A stretch of DNA of 27,609 bases from a virus: IMG/VR virus record IMGVR_UViG_3300049629_000462, positions 1-27,609 of that record, one strand, 5' to 3'. Below the pieces are notes generated by a model. The model ran no database searches, was not told the DNA's origin, and saw only the letters and a list, made by a program, of their open reading frames with translations. This document shows, piece after piece, positions 4,177-12,651 of this stretch (positions within the stretch are counted from its first letter, which is position 1; each line of letters opens with the position of its first letter). The translations under genes were made by a program, and so were the position numbers.

Positions 4177-4710
4177 TCACCATTGCGGTTGGTTCAGGTC
4201 TCTGTTCCGGTCTCTTCGATTCTTACCAACCCGCCCCCCCTTTGAAGGGGGGGCTATGGGGGGTTGGATATCTGTGGTTGTGGTTGTGGTTGTGGTTGCC
4301 ATCGTTTCGCCATTGGCGTTGCCATTAGCCCCGCCATTGGCCCCGCCATTGGCGTTGCCATTGGCCACCCCATTACGAGCGCGCCAGCGGGCATCCGCGC
4401 CCCGCCGACCGTTCTCGGAGGCGGTCGCGTGCTTCTCTTCAACGCGGGCGCGTTCGCGCTCCATGCGCGGATTGGATAGGGTGGCCATTGGCCCCGCCAT
4501 CCGCGTGAACCGCTGGCGGATGACCGCCCAATCGGCCTCTGACAGATTGCAACGGGTCAAGGTCGCGCACGCTTCCCGGTCATCGGGAACGCCGTGATTC
4601 GTCCAGGCGTACATCAGCAGTTGCGTGTACGCCCATCCCTGAACCGCCGTCATCGTGGCCGTGCTGACCAAGAAGTCGGTGGGGTACATCGGAAACCAAG
4701 GGGTAGCCAT
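4177..4710 (-). CDS. DUF1376-domain protein, putative phage replication initiator
   Basis: 177 residues. Residues 3-110 match the DUF1376 (YdaU-like) pattern: 'PWFPMYPTDFLVSTATMT', 'GWAYTQLLMYAWTNHGVPDD', 'NLSEADWAVIRQRF', and the closing 'TASENGRRGADARWR'. This family is common in phage replication modules and often precedes a helicase loader. A low-complexity tail follows: Asn-Gly-Ala-Asn repeats (about 113-134), eight Thr (139-146), Pro and a basic end. The start at 4710 has GGAG six bases upstream; the frame continues to 5001 but that part is not protein-like. The tail is encoded by tandem DNA repeats, so its length may vary between relatives. Confidence 0.8.
   Translation of the reverse strand: MATPWFPMYPTDFLVSTATMTAVQGWAYTQLLMYAWTNHGVPDDREACATLTRCNLSEADWAVIRQRFTRMAGPMATLSNPRMERERARVEEKHATASENGRRGADARWRARNGVANGNANGGANGGANGNANGETMATTTTTTTTDIQPPIAPPSKGGRVGKNRRDRNRDLNQPQW
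4273..4296. repeat. Hexanucleotide tandem repeat, 4 copies
   Basis: TGTGGT is repeated four times without a mismatch, encoding the poly-threonine run near the end of the DUF1376 protein. The unit is six bases, so copy-number change adds or removes two residues without breaking the frame. Confidence 0.85.
4309..4380. repeat. 12-base imperfect tandem repeat, 5-6 copies
   Basis: Units of the form GCCATTGGCGTT / GCCATTGGCCCC follow one another every 12 bases, the last one degenerate, and a further partial copy appears near 4485. On the minus strand they encode Gly/Ala-Asn-Gly linker residues. Unit length is a multiple of three, so slippage would alter linker length only. Confidence 0.85.
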
Positions 4711-4925
4711 TCCATGCTCCAAACTCCGCAGGCGAGGCGGGGAGCGGCTGCAAGCTAACCCGCCCCGCCCACGGATGTCGAAATGTCGAGCAGTTGCAGC
4801 CGCTCTCGCTACCCACGATGGGTTGCGTTGGATCGCAGTATACACTATCCTGCGCTCGTCGGGCGATGGTTTTTGCGATAGTCTGCGCGTGCAGCCTATG
4901 CCCGACAATTGAACCCCCGGAAGCG

Positions 4926-5524: not shown

Positions 5525-6457
5525 CTATTGCGCGTCCATCACATCCCACGCCATGCGCGGATGACCGCGTGACTTGCCGCCGTCCTTGTCATCTTCGGTT
5601 TCCCACCGGATGAACAGGCGCACCCACTTGGCGCGCAGCGGCGTGGGGCCTGGACCCTTCTCCACGATCCATCCGCCCGAACCGTCCCCCCAATCCTGCT
5701 TGTACGTCCCGCACCGCACGAAGTCGCAATGACGATGCCGCACCTCGTACACGCCGTTTCGGGTCTCGAGGTACTCGCGGGCAATGCCGACGATGTTGGA
5801 ATGGTGGTTGTGTCCAACGGCGATGCAGTCCACGCCCTCAAGCCACGAGAGCATTCGCCGGCTGTCAAGTACGCCCATCGACATGGGCGCGCCGCCGCCG
5901 CTGCCGTGGTGATAGCGCATGGTCCAGGTGAGGTTCGTGTTGTTGATATTGACGCGAACCTTCATCCATCCGCCGTAGCCGCCTGCGCCCATCTGTGATT
6001 TCGGATTGATCGACTTGATGGCACGAACAAGGTTTGCCGTGGGGCAGGTCTCGTGGTGCTTGAGCCACGCGCTCTCATGATTGCCTTGCCCCAACACCGC
6101 CCACCACGGCGCGTAGGGTGCGTAGCGTTCCGCCGTCTCGTTGATGACAGCGTCGAAGTACGCGGCAGCAGCGTGTGAACTGCGGAGCATCGCCTTGGAT
6201 TGCCGCCTATCCGAAACGCCACACATCAAATCGAGGCAATCTCCAAGATCGCAAATGATGGCGTTGCGCTCCTTGGCTTGGCGAAGGTGCTTCTCCTCAA
6301 GATTCCTATCGCACTTGGTGTTGTCGGTGTGTGCGTCCGATCTCAAAAGTATGTATTGCTCCCACTCGCGGAACGAAGTCCCGGTGCAGTCCACGATGTG
6401 GATGTTCTTCCCGTGGTGCGTGACTTGGAACGGGAGCGCGGCTGGTCGTTTCGCCAT
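5525..6457 (-). CDS. Calcineurin-like metallophosphoesterase
   Basis: 310 residues with all the motifs of the metallophosphoesterase fold in order: SDAHTD (Asp41, His43), GDCLD (Gly72-Asp76), GNHE (125-128), a HH pair (183-184) and GHNH (215-218). These residues bind two metal ions and hydrolyse phosphomono- or diesters. Phage members include 2',3'-cyclic phosphatases, SbcD-like nucleases and nucleotide hydrolases; this one has no added nuclease-complex domain, so the substrate is open. A weak GAGG lies close to the ATG. It is the first gene after the divergent region at 6458-6618. Confidence 0.85.
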   Translation of the reverse strand: MAKRPAALPFQVTHHGKNIHIVDCTGTSFREWEQYILLRSDAHTDNTKCDRNLEEKHLRQAKERNAIICDLGDCLDLMCGVSDRRQSKAMLRSSHAAAAYFDAVINETAERYAPYAPWWAVLGQGNHESAWLKHHETCPTANLVRAIKSINPKSQMGAGGYGGWMKVRVNINNTNLTWTMRYHHGSGGGAPMSMGVLDSRRMLSWLEGVDCIAVGHNHHSNIVGIAREYLETRNGVYEVRHRHCDFVRCGTYKQDWGDGSGGWIVEKGPGPTPLRAKWVRLFIRWETEDDKDGGKSRGHPRMAWDVMDAQ

Positions 6458-6618
6458 GCCTCACCACGCTATAGGGGTCTGATTGCCCCGCCGCAAAAAA
6501 GAAAAAAGTGGTCAGATTTCTTACAGCCGGGGGCTTGCGTCTGCCGATACCGATGCGTATAACACCACCAAGCGGTGGACGCACGTTGCGGAAGCCGCGA
6601 AATCACGAGGAGATTGCA
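6458..6618. promoter_or_regulatory. Divergent promoter region
   Basis: This 161-base gap separates the minus-strand metallophosphoesterase operon from the plus-strand operon. On the plus strand, TTGCGT (6535-6540), a 17-base spacer and TATAAC (6558-6563) make a plausible promoter 56 bases before the first start codon. On the minus strand, TTGCGG, a 17-base spacer and TATAGC (ending about 21 bases before the start at 6457) is weaker. A/T-rich tracts (two A6 runs near 6496-6507) lie between them and could bend DNA. Confidence 0.5.
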
Positions 6619-6870
6619 ATGAAGATCAAGGTCACCGTCGAAGATGCCCTGAACAACCACCCCACCCTTGGCCGGATCTACGGGGATGTGCTGCTCGCCT
6701 GCGCTCGGGAATTGTCCGACGCGGTCAGCCAGGAAGTCCTCCGTACCCACGCCGACTTCCACCACATCGACCCGGACAACGAGGCCGCGTGGCAGGACGC
6801 GCTTGACCGCCGCGACACCGCCGACCGGATGTTCCTCACCGTCCATGCCAAGACGGAGGTGATCCTGTGA
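6619..6870 (+). CDS. First gene of the plus-strand operon, hypothetical
   Basis: 83 residues, acidic, mostly helical (DVLLACARELSDAVSQEVLR), with a His-rich centre (THADFHHIDPDN) and 'DRRDTADRMFLTVH'. The start at 6619 has GAGGAGA six bases upstream. It ends in a GTGA overlap with the next gene. No family recognised. Confidence 0.65.
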   Translation: MKIKVTVEDALNNHPTLGRIYGDVLLACARELSDAVSQEVLRTHADFHHIDPDNEAAWQDALDRRDTADRMFLTVHAKTEVIL

Positions 6871-7184
6871 GCGCACGACGAACCGACCCGTGGACATCAC
6901 ACGCGGCCGCCGACAGCATGGTGGTCCCTGCCAAGGGGATGCAGGCCAAGTTGCTTGAGGCGTACCGCGCCAGCCCGAACGGCCTGACTGATGAGGAGGC
7001 GGCGGCAGCCGCGGGCCTTCCAATCGGTGCGTGGAAGCGATGCAGCGAGCTGCGTACCAAGGGTCTCATCACTTGGACCGGGGCTACCCGCGTAGCCTCA
7101 AGTGGTCGCCATGCACAGGTGTGCGTCCTGTCGCGGCCCAACCCCACAACCCTCTTCCCCATGCCCGAGGAATACCGATGGTGA
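6867..7184 (+). CDS. Winged-helix phage protein (DPWTSHAAA type)
   Basis: 105 residues with a GTG start in a GTGA overlap. The N-terminal 'TDPWTSHAAADS' followed by a winged helix (LLEAYRASPNGLTDEEAAAAAG, then KRCSELRTKGLITWTG and an SSGRHAQVCVL strand) matches a widespread phage and actinobacterial family of small proteins in replication regions. 'SELRTKGLI' is the recognition-helix end typical of MarR/Rep-like wHTH domains. It probably binds DNA or RNA; its target is unknown. Confidence 0.75.
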   Translation: MSARRTDPWTSHAAADSMVVPAKGMQAKLLEAYRASPNGLTDEEAAAAAGLPIGAWKRCSELRTKGLITWTGATRVASSGRHAQVCVLSRPNPTTLFPMPEEYRW

Positions 7185-7507
7185 GCAACGAAGATAGCCG
7201 CGGGATCTTCACCCGCATCCACGCCGTGACCATGTCCGCTGACCTGTTCCCCGCTGGCGATTCTGCGGGGGAGTACGTTGCCTCCAAGACCGTGGAGGTC
7301 ACGATCCTGGCGCGCTGGCAGCGCACGCCCACCGATCCGCGCCTGCTGGATTGGAGCCTGATTGCCATGTCGCTTGACGGCGTGGCGCTGTCCGAGGAGG
7401 TTGGCATCCCGTCCGACTTCCCCATGCAGCAGCTCGTGAATGCTGCCACGGTCTCCAGCAAAATGCGGCGCATCCTTGAAGGTAACGGGTCAGGAGTGAC
7501 CGCATGA
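7178..7507 (+). CDS. Hypothetical protein
   Basis: 109 residues. Strand-rich N-terminus (GIFTRIHAVTMSADL, then KTVEVTILARW) and a helical C-terminus (MQQLVNAATVSSKMRRIL). GAGGAA lies five bases before the ATG, which overlaps the preceding stop by seven bases; it ends in an ATGA overlap with the next gene. No family recognised. Confidence 0.65.
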   Translation: MVSNEDSRGIFTRIHAVTMSADLFPAGDSAGEYVASKTVEVTILARWQRTPTDPRLLDWSLIAMSLDGVALSEEVGIPSDFPMQQLVNAATVSSKMRRILEGNGSGVTA

Positions 7508-7908
7508 CTACCGAAAACCGTTGGGCTACGCCCACCATCTTGGAAGTGCAATGGCGGTTGGACGGACTGCCGAACTACGTTGACGAGGATTCCATCGCGG
7601 CCACGCTTGCCATGCCAGCGACCAACAAGGATGGCGTTCCTGGGATTGCGGCCATCGGGTGCGATCCGTTGGACAACGTCACTAGCACGCACGCGGACGC
7701 ATTCCCGGTGCGGTATTGGCTTGTTCACGCGCTGCTTGTGGACATTGGAGAGAGCAAGCGCCAGGATGCCGTGATTGCCACGCGCATCTCGAGCGTGGCG
7801 ATGTGGGAGCAAGGCGATACCGCCGACAGCGTCCGCACGGAGTACCTCGGCCGCGTGGTGTCGTTCGTAGCCGACAGCCTCAAGGCAATGGAGGTAGCCG
7901 ATGGTTGA
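7504..7908 (+). CDS. Hypothetical protein
   Basis: 134 residues. The centre (YWLVHALLVDIGESKRQDAVIATRIS) and the helical end (YLGRVVSFVADSLKAMEV) suggest an alpha/beta soluble protein. It starts in an ATGA overlap and ends eight bases into the next gene, so it belongs to the same coupled operon. No family recognised. Confidence 0.65.
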   Translation: MTTENRWATPTILEVQWRLDGLPNYVDEDSIAATLAMPATNKDGVPGIAAIGCDPLDNVTSTHADAFPVRYWLVHALLVDIGESKRQDAVIATRISSVAMWEQGDTADSVRTEYLGRVVSFVADSLKAMEVADG

Positions 7909-8086
7909 CATTGCCCATCAGAAGCTGCTAGCGATTACGGTGAGGCCATCCACCCAGGTGGTGTTTAGCGATGCGACCGGGCGCGACATTGCCGCCATCG
8001 TCATCAACGACAAGCACCCGCACATTGCGCGGTTGGTGTTCAAGGTGTCGGCAGACATCAAGATCCGAAGGGAGACCGCAGAATGA
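7901..8086 (+). CDS. CsrA-like small beta-rich protein
   Basis: 61 residues, the usual length of CsrA/RsmA. The strand order fits: b1 LLAITVRP (9-16), b2 TQVVFSD (18-24), b3 DIAAIVIND (29-37), b4 IARLVFKVS (42-50), b5 DIKIRRET (52-59). The b5 segment aligns with the CsrA 'EVSVHREE' strand, placing Arg57-Glu58 where CsrA has its key RNA-binding Arg44 and Glu45. CsrA proteins bind GGA motifs at ribosome-binding sites and control translation or mRNA decay. The b1 Arg and glycine loops are altered, so the call rests on pattern, not strong identity. It overlaps both neighbouring genes. Confidence 0.5.
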   Translation: MVDIAHQKLLAITVRPSTQVVFSDATGRDIAAIVINDKHPHIARLVFKVSADIKIRRETAE

Positions 8087-8379
8087 GGCGCACCGCAGAA
8101 TCCGTCCGCGCCGGCATCGTTGCCGACGAGGCTGCCGGGATGCAGCCCAAGGCCATCGCCATCAAATGGGGGGTGCATCGGTCCACGGTCAGCCGCCTTG
8201 TGGGAGTCAAGCGCAAGGTGACATTGCAACAGGCTGCGTCCGTCTTGTCGGCGCACCGCCGAGGAGTTAGCAAAGCCATCATCGCCGCAGAGCTGGGGGT
8301 GTCCGTCAGCGCCATCCGCCGCATTCTCCAAGGAAAGACCGCCGCCGCACGAAAAGCGGCAGGAGGTTTGCATGATTAG
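8083..8379 (+). CDS. Small protein with two helix-turn-helix repeats
   Basis: 98 residues. Two similar resolvase/homeodomain-like HTH units follow one another: residues about 8-38 (AAGMQPKAIAIKWGVHRSTVS) and about 47-79 (RRGVSKAIIAAELGVSVSAI). The pattern resembles the C-terminal DNA-binding parts of Hin-type recombinases and transposases, without any catalytic domain, and a basic tail (KTAAARKAAGG) follows. It starts in an ATGA overlap. It probably binds DNA as a regulator or replication accessory. Confidence 0.7.
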   Translation: MRRTAESVRAGIVADEAAGMQPKAIAIKWGVHRSTVSRLVGVKRKVTLQQAASVLSAHRRGVSKAIIAAELGVSVSAIRRILQGKTAAARKAAGGLHD

Positions 8380-8641
8380 TATCCTCGCCCGTGTACGTTT
8401 GCTCCGAAAGGAGGACGGCGCGATGGAAGATCCGTGTGTGGATTGGAGAGCGCGGGCGATAGCCGCGGAGGCCATGCTTGCACGCATGGAGCTGCTGGTC
8501 TACAGCGACCGCCCCACGGTGCAGAATCCCAACGGCATGACTTGGCGCGACCGGGCCATCAGAGCCGAGGAGGAAGCGCAGAAGTGCCGCAACGTCCTGC
8601 CCACGCACATTGAGCGCATCCTGTATGCGGGTGAGGGGTAA
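8372..8641 (+). CDS. Hypothetical helical protein
   Basis: 89 residues from the ATG at 8372, which has AGGAGG five bases upstream and overlaps the previous stop by eight bases. A second start at 8423 also has a strong site (AAAGGAGG) and would give 72 residues, beginning MEDPCVDW; either or both may be used. The centre has paired helices (DWRARAIAAEAMLARMELL and TWRDRAIRAEEEAQKC), a repeated 'W-R-x-R-A-I-x-A-E' motif. No family recognised. Confidence 0.6.
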   Translation: MISILARVRLLRKEDGAMEDPCVDWRARAIAAEAMLARMELLVYSDRPTVQNPNGMTWRDRAIRAEEEAQKCRNVLPTHIERILYAGEG

Positions 8642-8644
8642 CCA

Positions 8645-8839
8645 ATGCCGCGCCAGGAGGAGGACGAGGACATCGTGGACCGTATCAAGGGCAGCGCGAC
8701 GACCGACCCCCTCACCATTGAGGCGATGCATGAGGTGATTCGCATCCGCCGGGAGATGGCGCGGATCATCCGCACGGGGAACCAAATACAGCAGGAGTTG
8801 GAACTTTGCAAGAGCCAGCAGGCCAAGCAGGCGCGTTGA
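8645..8839 (+). CDS. Small acidic helical protein
   Basis: 64 residues. An acidic start (PRQEEDEDIVDRI) is followed by a long helix (IEAMHEVIRIRREMARIIRT, then QIQQELELCKSQQAKQ). GAGGGG lies six bases before the ATG. The stop overlaps the RusA-like gene's start (TGATG), so the two are translationally coupled. A partner of the resolvase is possible but not demonstrated. Confidence 0.6.
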   Translation: MPRQEEDEDIVDRIKGSATTDPLTIEAMHEVIRIRREMARIIRTGNQIQQELELCKSQQAKQAR

Positions 8840-9237
8840 TGTTCAGCGTCCCCGGCGCAGCCGCGCCGCAGGGAAGTAAGACCGTTTTCCGCAGGGGTAG
8901 CCGCATCGTCCTCGTGGAGTCAAGCGCCAAGGTCAAGCCCTACCGCGCCGCCGTGGCGGCAGCGGCTTACGCCGCTGGCGCGGTTGTGGTGGACGGCCCG
9001 GTGAGCGTGCGCGTGGCGTTCTCGTTCGTCCGCCCCGCCAGCCATTTCGGGGCGCGTGGGCTGCGGACGGCCGCACGCACGTTTCCCGGCAAGCCCGACA
9101 CCGACAAGCTCGTGCGCGCCACGCTAGACGCGCTCACGGGCATTGCCTACCGCGACGATGCCCAAGTGGTGGAGATTTGGGCCACGAAGGCATACGGGCC
9201 GACCGCGCAGACGGTCATCGCCATTGCCTCGATTTGA
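8839..9237 (+). CDS. RusA-like Holliday junction resolvase
   Basis: 132 residues. The family signature is clear: 'VPGAAAPQGSKTVFR' at the start, then KPDTDKL (85-91), DAL (97-99) and RDDAQV (105-110). Asp87/Asp89, Asp97 and Asp106/107 correspond to the metal-binding acidic residues of RusA. RusA dimers cut four-way junctions symmetrically. Together with the annealing protein downstream it forms a phage recombination pair. The start at 8839 is chosen because it overlaps the previous stop (TGATG); the longer frame from 8806 is unlikely. The next promoter overlaps its stop codon. Confidence 0.85.
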   Translation: MFSVPGAAAPQGSKTVFRRGSRIVLVESSAKVKPYRAAVAAAAYAAGAVVVDGPVSVRVAFSFVRPASHFGARGLRTAARTFPGKPDTDKLVRATLDALTGIAYRDDAQVVEIWATKAYGPTAQTVIAIASI

Positions 9238-9261
9238 CTTTCGGCTACCGGGCCGTATACT
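9234..9261 (+). promoter_or_regulatory. Sigma70-like promoter of the RecT-like gene
   Basis: TTGACT (9234-9239), a 16-base spacer and TATACT (9256-9261) match the consensus closely. It overlaps the stop codon of the RusA-like gene and lies about 60 bases before the start at 9324, so the annealing protein can be made independently of the upstream operon. Confidence 0.75.
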
Positions 9262-9323
9262 GATTACGCCCTCGCACGTTGCGCGGGACGGGCGCGGCGC
9301 TCCGCGTACATGAGGAGATGCAT

Positions 9324-10247
9324 ATGGAACTCGCAAGGATCGGGCAAGCGCAGCTTGACCCCATGTCGGTCGCCCAGGTGTTCAAGGCTTCGGGGATGTT
9401 CCCCGACATTCAGTCGGAGGCCGCAGCGTGCGCGAAGATCATCATCGGGCGCGGCCTGGGCCTGTCGGACTATGACGCGATGACGGGCCTGCACATCATC
9501 AAGGGCAAGGCCGTGCTGGCCGCCAACCTGATGGCCGCCGCCATCAAGCGCGCAGGGAAGTACGACTACCGCGCTGCCTGCACGGACACGGATTGCAGCA
9601 TCGTGTTCTTTGGCCGCAGCCCGGAGAACAAGTGGGAGGAGATCGGGACCACGACCTTCTCTATGGACGATGCGAAGCGGGCGCAGCTCGGCGGGGACAA
9701 TTGGCGCAAGTGGCCCAAGGCAATGCTCTTCGCCCGCTGCATTTCTAGCGGGTACAAGCAGCATTGCCCGGACGCGCTTGGCGCGGCCCCGGTGTACGTC
9801 GAAGCCCACGGCGAGACCGAGATCACGGAGGAAGCCCCCAAGGCCCGCGCCGCCCTTGCCGCCCCCGCAGCCCCTACGATTGACGCAGAGGCATCGGTGG
9901 TGGAGGATGCCCCGAAGCCCGTCCGCAAGCGCACGGCCAAGCAGGAGGCAAACCCGGCCCCGGAAACGCCCAAGGCGGCTGACGGCTATCCCGACGAGTA
10001 CGAGGGCGAGTTCAAGATCCTGCGCGTGGTGCGCCGCCCCGGCAAGCCCATTGCAATCAACGCCGTGGGCGAACACGGCGCGGCATGGATTGCCACCTCA
10101 ATTCTTGAGTATGGCCACCTGGCGGACGCGAACGTGGACAAGGAGATGCGCCTTGAGGTCGCCCGGATCGGGCAGACGCTACAGGTCATGCGCGTCATCG
10201 GGCCGATTGCGCCGGCCAAGGTTGACCCCGCGGACGTACCCTTCTGA
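9324..10247 (+). CDS. RecT-like single-strand annealing protein with an SSB-like C-terminal tip
   Basis: 307 residues. Residues 15-160 match a RecT-like annealing clade: 'AACAKIIIGRGLGLSDYDAMTGLHII', 'KAVLAANLMAAAIKRAGKYDY', 'TFSMDDAKRAQL', 'NWRKWPKAMLFARC'. Such proteins coat and anneal single-stranded DNA in phage replication and recombination. A Pro/Ala-rich linker (about 165-225) leads to a small alpha/beta domain (228-296). The last residues, DPADVPF, resemble the acidic DDDIPF tip of bacterial SSB. The start at 9324 has GAGGAG six bases upstream; an ATG at 9318 is too close to the site. The gene has its own promoter and a terminator downstream. Confidence 0.75.
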   Translation: MELARIGQAQLDPMSVAQVFKASGMFPDIQSEAAACAKIIIGRGLGLSDYDAMTGLHIIKGKAVLAANLMAAAIKRAGKYDYRAACTDTDCSIVFFGRSPENKWEEIGTTTFSMDDAKRAQLGGDNWRKWPKAMLFARCISSGYKQHCPDALGAAPVYVEAHGETEITEEAPKARAALAAPAAPTIDAEASVVEDAPKPVRKRTAKQEANPAPETPKAADGYPDEYEGEFKILRVVRRPGKPIAINAVGEHGAAWIATSILEYGHLADANVDKEMRLEVARIGQTLQVMRVIGPIAPAKVDPADVPF

Positions 10248-10254
10248 CCGTAGG

Positions 10255-10692
10255 CTAGTCGTTCTTCTCCCCCCCGCTTGCGGCCGCAGGAAGTTGGCCA
10301 GCAGGCGGGGGGTTTTCGTTTGGCACGCCGAACGGTACGAGGCGATTCAGGGCGGCTTGCCGCCGTCCACACGCCTGACACGGCTTGATCCCGATGGCCT
10401 TGGTCGCGGCGGCGACAACGTCACCCAGGCCACGGAAACCCTGCTTGGGCTGTTCCGGCGTTACCTGTTCGGGTGCGGGTTGATCTATGTCCGTAACGAT
10501 GAACAACGGCGGTCGGCGAAGATCACCGTTGCGAGTAACCCTGCGTTCGCATGATCCGCACCCAGCCAAGTCCAACCCAAGATCGCATTGCGGCGTGACC
10601 TCCTTGATGCGATATGAGGTGCAATCAATGATCGGTAGCGAAATGGTGTCGCCCATCAAATTGATGTGGCCCATGATGGGACGATTGCTCAT
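10255..10692 (-). CDS. Small CxxC protein at the end of the virion operon
   Basis: 145 residues. It contains 'CGSCERRV' in the middle and, near the end, 'ATKAIGIKPCQACGRRQAALNRLVPF'. The 'GIxPCxxCxxRxxxLNRxxP' block is frequent in small phage proteins encoded after tail genes, and the four cysteines could bind a metal. The start at 10692 forms an ATGA overlap with the stop of the cysteine-rich gene. Its 3' end carries the plus-strand terminator of the RecT-like gene, and the two operons converge with only seven bases between stops. Function unknown. Confidence 0.7.
   Translation of the reverse strand: MSNRPIMGHINLMGDTISLPIIDCTSYRIKEVTPQCDLGLDLAGCGSCERRVTRNGDLRRPPLFIVTDIDQPAPEQVTPEQPKQGFRGLGDVVAAATKAIGIKPCQACGRRQAALNRLVPFGVPNENPPPAGQLPAAASGGEKND
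10270..10316 (+). terminator. Intrinsic terminator of the plus-strand operon
   Basis: CCCCCCGC (10270-10277) pairs with GCGGGGGG (10305-10312) and is followed by TTTT. The 27-base loop holds an internal palindrome (TGCGGCCGCA) that can extend the structure. It ends transcripts coming from the RecT-like gene. It lies inside the coding sequence of the convergent minus-strand gene. Confidence 0.7.
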
Positions 10693-12494
10693 GTTATTGC
10701 GATTACCGATCCGTCTGTAGTGCAACGGTATGAGGTTGATTGGAACGAACGCAAGCACGGTTGCGGCAACGGATGGTCGATGTTCCATTGCTCACAATCC
10801 TCACCCGGAGGACAGCACAGGGCGGGCGTGTATTGGAACGGGTACGAGTAGCACCAGCTCTTGGGTTCAAATTGCCCAGGGCAAAGGTTTCGCCATCCGA
10901 CCTGGACAACGGTACTGCCCACCACAATGTTGTTGAGCGGCCAACCAACGCGAGATTGGCAACCAGCCACGGTTTCGTAGAAGTTGATGTCCGTGCAGAT
11001 GCTTGTGTTGGAGGACGGCTCCTCAACGCGCCGCATGGTGTATCGGAAGTTGTTGGAGTATTCCGGGAACGACAGGCACTTCAGCACATACGGGTATTCC
11101 GTACCCACGGCAGATATCGCGCAATTGATGACATCGCCCACCGTGGAATAGTCGGAGCGGAGCCGCTGGGAAGCGCAGACGTACCAGCGCGGACTAGATG
11201 CTCGGAGCCAAACACGGATCTGCGCGCCGCCGTTGATGAAGGCCACGCGGTCAACGTAGATGGTGTCGCCAAACGATGCCGGCGGTCTTTCGTTTGGTGA
11301 TGCCTCCGGACAGGCAAAGCATGACTGCCGGAATCCAAACCAAAAGAACGCGGACCACGGGCCGATACCCGAGGCCTGCACGAGTGCGCCGATTCTGCTG
11401 TTGACCTTGGCAGCAATGTGCGCGGCGTTACCCGAAAACATGATGGTGGTGAGGTCGCACACTCGCACATACGGAACGGTAAACACGCCCCACCCCGTAT
11501 TGACCGGGCCAGTAGTCACTTCAACAACCGGATACTCGCCCGTGATGAACGTTTCATTGAGCTGCGCCTGGGCTGTCGGAGATCCGTAGATGATGTCCGG
11601 CGCGAAGCAGGCATCAAACGTCAGTTGCAGAACATCCTCAACGTGATCTTGGCCTTCGCACAGGTTGACCGAATAGCAAGTCGTGTAGTTGTAGGTCTCA
11701 AACCTGTCCTCAAACGAGCTGCAGAAGTCGGGATCGACATCGCAGTTTGGCGTTGAACCGCAGCAGTCGCCTTCCGGGTCGCAATCAGGGCAGTCCATGT
11801 ATTTGAGGAAATACTGCGTCACCGAATAGTTGGTCGGGCATGGGGCCGGAAAATCGTTGACGGTGCAAAGACTCAAGTTCTGCACCATGCCGATGGTCAG
11901 GTTGTCATGCTCAACGGGCGGCCCGTGGTCGCACCGCACGGGCCATGTCACGCCGATGGTTTCGATGCATTGAGTAGCCGACGAAGAAACGGTGACAGGC
12001 ACGGCCGTTCCAACCTGATCAGCAAGGGTGTAGCATTGCGCCACCAGCTCCTCGCATGGATCGCTTGGGATTTCGATATTGGCCCCAGGCAATTTGATGA
12101 TTTGGCCGGGATCTGTTTTGACTTGCGGCTCGGGGTAGCAACATGGGTCACCCGTGGTTGCCTTGTTGCTAATCTTCAACAGCCGACCGACATCAATTGG
12201 ATTGGTTGGTATGACCGGGGGACACACGGCGACCGTTTCATACCCAGTCAGGATGTAGACGCAACAGTCGTAGGCGATGTAATAGCAGAGGTTCGTGATG
12301 TCCGGCGGCAGGGAAATGCCGATGGAGGTCAGGTAACTCTCGCAAAAGTCAATTCGATTTGGGGCCGCGCCGCAGTCCGATTGGCAGCAATAGTCCTCAA
12401 AGAAATCAGGACACTTAATTGCATACCACAACCGCGGCAATGGAGGCGGCGGCGGTTGTTCGCAACAACAGGAAGCGTTCAGGCTCCCGCTCAT
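10689..12494 (-). CDS. Very cysteine-rich large protein of the tail/lysis end
   Basis: 601 residues with 44 cysteines by my count (about 7%), many in CC, CCC or CxxC pairs (ASCCCEQ, YCCQSDC, CPDCDPEGDCC, ALCCPPGEDC). A Pro run (PPPPPLP) follows the first cluster. No repeat unit, enzyme motif or signal peptide is obvious; the rest is aromatic- and Thr-rich as in virion surface proteins. The start at 12494 overlaps a tiny upstream frame (ATGA) and has no strong ribosome-binding site; the longer frame to 12620 reads through two small membrane genes and is not protein-like. Position after the fibre and membrane cluster suggests a virion surface or host-interaction protein (inference). Confidence 0.75.
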   Translation of the reverse strand: MSGSLNASCCCEQPPPPPLPRLWYAIKCPDFFEDYCCQSDCGAAPNRIDFCESYLTSIGISLPPDITNLCYYIAYDCCVYILTGYETVAVCPPVIPTNPIDVGRLLKISNKATTGDPCCYPEPQVKTDPGQIIKLPGANIEIPSDPCEELVAQCYTLADQVGTAVPVTVSSSATQCIETIGVTWPVRCDHGPPVEHDNLTIGMVQNLSLCTVNDFPAPCPTNYSVTQYFLKYMDCPDCDPEGDCCGSTPNCDVDPDFCSSFEDRFETYNYTTCYSVNLCEGQDHVEDVLQLTFDACFAPDIIYGSPTAQAQLNETFITGEYPVVEVTTGPVNTGWGVFTVPYVRVCDLTTIMFSGNAAHIAAKVNSRIGALVQASGIGPWSAFFWFGFRQSCFACPEASPNERPPASFGDTIYVDRVAFINGGAQIRVWLRASSPRWYVCASQRLRSDYSTVGDVINCAISAVGTEYPYVLKCLSFPEYSNNFRYTMRRVEEPSSNTSICTDINFYETVAGCQSRVGWPLNNIVVGSTVVQVGWRNLCPGQFEPKSWCYSYPFQYTPALCCPPGEDCEQWNIDHPLPQPCLRSFQSTSYRCTTDGSVIAIT

Positions 12495-12538
12495 GCCACG
12501 ATGACAAGCGCAGCGATGAAGATGAGCAGGCGCGTCAC
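12491..12538 (-). CDS. Possible 15-residue hydrophobic micro-ORF
   Basis: A GTG start in a GTGA overlap with the 38-residue gene opens a frame, (M)TRLLIFIAALVIVA, that stops in an ATGA overlap with the cysteine-rich gene. Both junctions and the single hydrophobic span are suggestive of a coupled micropeptide or a coupling device that carries ribosomes to the next start, but a frame this short can arise by chance. Confidence 0.3.
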   Translation of the reverse strand: MTRLLIFIAALVIVA

Positions 12539-12651
12539 TTGATGATTCCGCGCTTGCAGAGGTAGATGCCGCCGGCAACGCCGAGGCAGAAGCAAAGGGC
12601 CGCCGCCCACACCGAGCCAACGAAACTGGAGAGGTCTGCGAGAAGCATCAT
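12535..12651 (-). CDS. 38-residue membrane protein, holin-like candidate
   Basis: It starts with two ATG codons (TGATGATG) overlapping the preceding stop and encodes a span of about residues 10-32 (FVGSVWAAALCFCLGVAGGIY) with a basic end (CKRGIIK). Size, single span and charged tail resemble pinholin- or toxin-like small membrane proteins. It follows a lipoprotein and a membrane-anchored coiled-coil protein, a grouping reminiscent of lysis cassettes, although no endolysin is visible. Confidence 0.5.
   Translation of the reverse strand: MMLLADLSSFVGSVWAAALCFCLGVAGGIYLCKRGIIK

Follow-up and report, generated by a model that had tools for sequence, protein, structure and literature searches.

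The window analyzed here is a 27,609-nucleotide stretch (positions 1 to 27,609 of the IMG/VR virus record IMGVR_UViG_3300049629_000462) whose plus strand carries a block of small genes ending with genes for a RusA-like Holliday junction resolvase (8839..9237, +) and a RecT-like annealing protein (9324..10247, +), and whose minus strand encodes a major head protein and a connector protein. Within this block, and co-directional with the RusA-like gene, lies a CsrA-like gene (7901..8086, +, stop included) for a protein of 61 amino acids, referred to below as P0001. The gene starts with ATG at 7901 and ends with TGA at 8084-8086, and a Shine-Dalgarno sequence, GGAGG (7890..7894, +), stands six bases 5' of the start codon. 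The end of the upstream neighboring ORF (7504..7908, +; 134 aa, no assigned function) overlaps the start of P0001, and the ATG at 8083 of the downstream neighbor, a gene for an HTH DNA-binding protein (8083..8379, +), overlaps the P0001 stop codon (ATGA). The same upstream neighbor, in the same order, recurs in several diverged relatives. Rfam and tRNA scans of the window found nothing. On the minus strand, a 12-base tandem repeat of 5.6 copies (4308-4374) lies within a primosomal-like gene (4177-4713), where it codes for an Asn-Gly-Ala-rich stretch and adjoins a TGTGGT array at 4273-4298.

P0001 is 97-100% identical in nine viral contigs (IMG/VR relatives of the window). When the window was compared with eight of these nine (L008, which has a stretch with the same changes as L006/L007, was omitted), 18 of the 21 variable codons were synonymous and three nonsynonymous. 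NG86 estimates were dN 0-0.045 and dS 0.05-0.23 for this group, and dN vs. dS of 0.09 vs. 0.69 and 0.12 vs. 0.96 for two pairs from other family groups. The ORF at 7901-8086, first picked out in a sequence-only reading of the window, is confirmed by its position, its nine relatives and this codon pattern; it is a real gene, conserved and under purifying selection. That it is instead a spurious ORF without a product, for which the absence of any library match to P0001 might be cited, has practically no probability left: this explanation is already refuted by the codon evidence, and the family to which the gene belongs is kept on about 45 other contigs.

The sequence-only reading had proposed that the gene encodes a divergent, phage-borne CsrA-like translational regulator, a claim that would stay open on single-sequence evidence alone. 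P0001 by itself had no match in Pfam, PHROGs or NCBIfam, and its matches among PDB sequences were chance ones only, the DARPin/ankyrin chains (E 0.21 and worse) being set aside as such. Against 50,697 phage records P0001 gave a single match at E 7 and nothing significant, and its diverged relative L031 had no significant match in the same collection. Neither P0001 nor L031 had relatives among genome contigs that would tie the gene to a host or a prophage, and a distant DNA search with positions 5525-12620 of the window returned short matches only, two of them under RusA genes.

Relatives were found by taking RecT as an anchor (63 loci) and iterating an HMM over all ORFs of those loci, and the family was extended by scans with new members and by searches of whole records. 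By our own count it occurs on 45 other viral contigs: nine carry the window type, another 30 belong to the main group, four to a second group, and two carry weaker members. Members of the main group are 24-48% identical to P0001 where aligned, and the second group matches the main group in a profile comparison with Prob 95.9. Sixteen main-group loci other than that of the window were examined, and in every one the gene sits upstream of RusA or RecT in the same orientation, often behind the same neighbors (105, 108 and 134 aa); at the five loci of the second group plus L048, it lies downstream of RecT, again on the same strand. A family member was present at 27 of the 63 RecT loci (own count), and absence from the remaining loci is not shown because many of them are fragments.

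The alignment used for most comparisons (A3, 24 rows) consists of 20 main-group sequences, out of 25 distinct ones, plus four weaker ones (E 0.019-0.11); one truncated and four near-duplicate main-group sequences were omitted, as were four noise rows (E 3.8 and worse). L122 (G017), whose match spans only 22 positions, was dropped as a chance match. The two weaker members of the family, L120 and L121 (E 1.1e-7 and 5.2e-5 per record), picked up later from related records, were used in an extended alignment, and L120 (as L048) also in alignment A5. Neither has a Pfam match, and tblastn searches of the phages gave four matches at E 4-6 for L121 and none for L120. In both (L120 at 1495-1863, L121 at 1333-1713), the loop joining strands 2 and 3 is shorter, and strand 1 is followed by Gly-Asp in place of the Gly-Glu of CsrA; they are possible intermediates between the family and CsrA.

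When 25 members were scanned singly against 24,736 Pfam models, nine matched PF02599 (CsrA), with a best E of 0.0032, and the only other family to appear was DUF1989 (five of the 25, best E 0.074). The CsrA-matching members come from separate subfamilies (L031/L083/L077, L032/L097, L021 and, from the second group, L063), and the match covers profile positions 5-45 of 53 in L083 and L077 and 4-45 of 53 in L021. No member reached the curated PF02599 cut-off of 27 bits, the best scoring 17.8 bits, and none of 81 phage records lay above it. Because PF02599 at E up to 1 also matches in four control genomes, likewise below the cut-off, single weak matches of this kind mean little, and the weight of the argument falls on profile comparison and its controls.

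The 24-row family alignment was compared by hhalign with 16 CsrA rows (E. coli CsrA plus 15 phage and plasmid CsrAs, leaving out L112, which is broken off at residue 28, and L113, which has two units in one chain). The two profiles aligned over 47 columns with Prob 83.8, a pairwise E of 7.8e-6 and a score of 29.0, placing P0001 residues 10-61 on CsrA residues 2-48. Prob was 34.5 with a smaller CsrA set, 36.7 for the main group alone and 43.7 for the second group alone, and rose to 88.5 when L120 and L121 were added. None of 200 column permutations scored as high as 29.0 (best 17.0), and reversing the profile gave 10.1. Rotating it by 5, 8 and 11 columns still gave 27.5-28.8, as is to be expected when the first ten columns are not part of the aligned region, and rotations are therefore useless as a control. 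Among 135 ORF clusters of the same loci (mechanical ORFs, coding or not, with the family as one of them and 134 others), the family ranked first, with a score of 25.3 over 46 columns compared with 19.4 over 17 columns for the next. Leaving out each of nine groups in turn gave scores of 27.5-34.4, with CsrA R44 on the same arginine each time. The window group alone scored 12.7 against CsrA, with Prob 1.2, so that P0001 is linked to CsrA by way of its relatives. Homology to CsrA along the core is thus detectable at the level of the family profile. Of the proposed CsrA-like identity, what holds is a profile match above all controls, with CsrA the choice of nine of the 25 members; what does not hold is membership of PF02599 as curated, given the 81 phage records below its cut-off.

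The alignment pairs R57 of P0001 with CsrA R44, E58 with E45, T13 with T5 and R15 with R7, so that the earlier assignment of Arg57-Glu58 to the position of CsrA Arg44-Glu45 was recovered in the same register by profile comparison. R57 (codon at 8069..8071, +) and G27 are invariant in all 24 rows; E58 is kept in 20 of them, and position 15 is R or K in 20. Alanine occupies the place of CsrA A36 in 16 of 24 rows and proline that of P37 in seven, and A36-P37-K38 of CsrA is kept as A-P-K in the L031/L083 group. CsrA R6 is not kept: P0001 has V14 there, and position 14 is hydrophobic in 24/24 rows. Nor is E46, as glutamate stands at position 59 in a single row of the 24. CsrA G9 is replaced by S17 in P0001, and this position is glycine in 10 of the 24 rows. 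The differences from CsrA in the first-strand arginine and glycine that had been remarked on from the sequence were accordingly borne out, as V14 for R6 and S17 for G9. For RsmE, possible RNA contacts are described from T5 and R6 on one subunit and from R44 and E46 on its partner (PMC4005645). R44 is reported to be essential for RNA binding in CsrA/RsmA, and loss of R62, its equivalent in RsmN, to lower affinity more than 1,000-fold (PMC3791407; PMC7366521). Judged by the alignment, the family keeps the main RNA-contact arginine and has lost the R6/E46 clasp, the subunit salt bridge to which R8-E64 corresponds in RsmN.

AlphaFold2 modeled the P0001 monomer, with the family alignment, as five strands at a mean pLDDT of 89.1 (one of the five models reached only 63.9), and a monomer model of L083 had nearly the same five strands (pLDDT 88.2). 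All on the plus strand, the predicted strands of P0001 are strand 1 at residues 7-14 (7919..7942), aligned with CsrA beta1; strand 2 at residues 18-23 (7952..7969); strand 3 at residues 29-34 (7985..8002); strand 4 at residues 43-50 (8027..8050), aligned with CsrA 30-37; and strand 5 at residues 54-59 (8060..8077), covering part of the IKIRRE motif and placed by both the model and the profile alignment. Through the alignment these fall on the five strands of CsrA, and the model thus agrees with the strand order that had been read from the sequence. The loop between strands 2 and 3 (residues 24-28, DATGR; 7970..7984, +) is about five residues longer than in CsrA. No C-terminal helix follows beta5 in the model of either P0001 or L083, and P0001 ends two residues past strand 5.

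The sequence-only reading had made the CsrA claim depend on the predicted structure, and on this point it was not borne out: Foldseek and the VIA second fold search, run with the two confident monomer models, had no CsrA or RsmN among the best 50 matches listed for each, and a viral structure library named no CsrA among the matches listed. Foldseek gave no match at an E of 0.001 or better. For P0001 the best Z was 4.9, to 4h4n (3.1 A over 53 residues), with TRAP at Z 3.9, and for L083 it was 4.7, to the NEDD4 C2 domain (3.2 A over 62). Likewise, no CsrA chain turned up at E up to 10 when the family profile was run as an HMM against PDB sequences. Such results, like the constant company of RecT/RusA, would suit an unrelated small early phage protein whose five beta strands form some other fold, Ig-like or barrel-like, and whose likeness to CsrA is convergent; it might work with RecT/RusA or with the overlapping HTH gene. 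We judge this alternative rather unlikely. The middling hits are to varied beta proteins, and their Z values fall short of what the fold tool itself describes as telling; among Pfam matches CsrA is the most frequent, with only one other family appearing; and the profile match runs end to end, in register, at a level that the controls did not reach. Moreover, strands 1 and 5 of CsrA are described as intertwining with the other subunit (PMC7366521), and a lone-chain model is for that reason a poor test of the CsrA fold. With predicted monomers of this kind, the missing CsrA counts mildly against a CsrA identity and is no proof of a different fold.

Ribosome-binding sites had been offered as a further argument, on the grounds that CsrA binds GGA and that nearly every gene in the window has GGA there. 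GGA was found at 26 of 39 start sites (hand-picked from the ORF list) compared with 28% of random 20-mers, an excess that upholds part of the observation and leaves "nearly every" too strong. GGA in a predicted hairpin loop occurred at four of the 39 sites, compared with 8.25% of 400 random 55-mers, which is background. The argument therefore falls, since upstream GGA is what any Shine-Dalgarno sequence gives and GGA in hairpin loops is no commoner than by chance.

P0001 is not a member of the CsrA family as curated. We file it with a CsrA-like family because the cut-off, the R6/E46 residues and the C-terminal helix were each tested and not found. The likeness to CsrA/RsmA/RsmE (PF02599) lies in a length of 61 aa in both E. 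coli CsrA and P0001, in five strands in the same order with CsrA residues 2-48 aligned, and in R57, E58 and T13 at the places of R44, E45 and T5. The family differs in scoring below the curated cut-off, in the loss of R6/E46, in having no C-terminal helix and no CsrA among the listed fold matches, in the loss of G9 in P0001, and in the roughly five additional residues between strands 2 and 3, which include the invariant G27. RsmN/RsmF of Pseudomonas aeruginosa (PDB 4kji, 4k59) is described as divergent too, its strands 2 and 3 separated by an insert, its C-terminus truncated and without a helix, and an arginine standing at the R44 place (PMC3791407). By its published description, however, the RsmN insert is of about 16 residues and helical, whereas that of the family is of about five and has no helix, and RsmN keeps an R8-E64 pair whose equivalent is lost in the family (PMC3791407). 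RsmN subunits are reported to dock without swapping (PMC3791407).

CsrA carried by phages is established (PMC7366521, PMC11879866), with a reported occurrence in 30 of 2,517 phages (PMC7366521), and in our tblastn search 85 of the 50,697 phage records matched E. coli CsrA. Those among the matches listed (60 of the 85) are 45-100% identical to E. coli CsrA. Like P0001, canonical phage CsrA is a small regulator-sized protein carried by phages, but it is close to E. coli CsrA, whereas P0001 and L031 had no significant match in that same collection. Knock-down of the csrA homologue of phage PTXU04 is reported to give smaller plaques (PMC11879866). Among the titles and abstract openings listed by our searches of the open-licence PMC literature, none describes a phage family like this one, divergent and CsrA-like.

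We consider P0001 to be, somewhat probably, a remote member of the CsrA superfamily acting as an RNA-binding regulator in a gene block with RusA and RecT, as sequence comparison suggests. Given the family link and R57, the likely mechanism would be that of an RNA-binding dimer. P0001 would be expressed early; its five strands would assemble into a dimer in which strands 1 and 5 form two faces for RNA; R57 would touch either a base in the loop or the phosphate backbone; and P0001 may sit on ribosome-binding regions of early phage or host mRNAs and block or adjust their translation. Because R6/E46 and the helix are gone and the loop between strands 2 and 3 is longer, a docked, non-swapped dimer of the RsmN type and a motif other than ANGGA may apply, although an RsmN-like docked dimer in this family is speculation by analogy. 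Taken together, it is possible, if doubtful, that the family is a hitherto unrecognized branch of the CsrA superfamily, confined to phages, which retained the beta core and the RNA-contact arginine while losing the helix and R6/E46, and which, as a docked dimer like that of RsmN and with a new RNA specificity, controls early phage or host translation from a place beside the recombination genes.

P0001 might alternatively be a CsrA decoy that regulates no mRNA itself and instead pairs or competes with host CsrA, or titrates its sRNAs, thereby freeing mRNAs from repression. A small CsrA-like core without R6/E46 could dimerize without full RNA specificity, phage CsrA has been proposed as a means of manipulating the host, its immune systems among the processes affected (PMC11879866), and Rsm control of CRISPR-Cas is described (PMC8450108). 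We regard a decoy as quite improbable: the RNA-contact residue R57 is invariant, as is G27, and a pure decoy would need neither; heterodimers of CsrA paralogues, moreover, had by one account not been shown even in hosts (PMC7366521).

If P0001 and its relatives are indeed CsrA-like RNA-binding regulators, phages use this fold to control translation more widely than has been counted: surveys of phage CsrA start from canonical CsrA (as with the 30 of 2,517 and 85 of 50,697 above), and such searches miss this family. The family would also show which CsrA features are dispensable (the helix and R6/E46) while the R44 arginine stays fixed. The CsrA-like reading supplies, in addition, a candidate function for an anonymous gene with shared synteny across a set of uncultured phages.

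Several of the CsrA sequences gathered for comparison had unusual architectures. L113, on a Xanthomonas campestris plasmid (NZ_CP066976.1, 18-404), is annotated as a carbon storage regulator and seemingly has two CsrA-like beta units in one chain, making it a possible fused CsrA dimer. The Pseudomonas phage CsrAs L099, L101 and L102 share a C-terminal extension of about 70 residues that is nearly the same across the phages. L106, a CsrA on plasmid pPLIM01 of Planctopirus limnophila (201-410), has additional residues following strand 2, roughly where the phage family has its longer loop.
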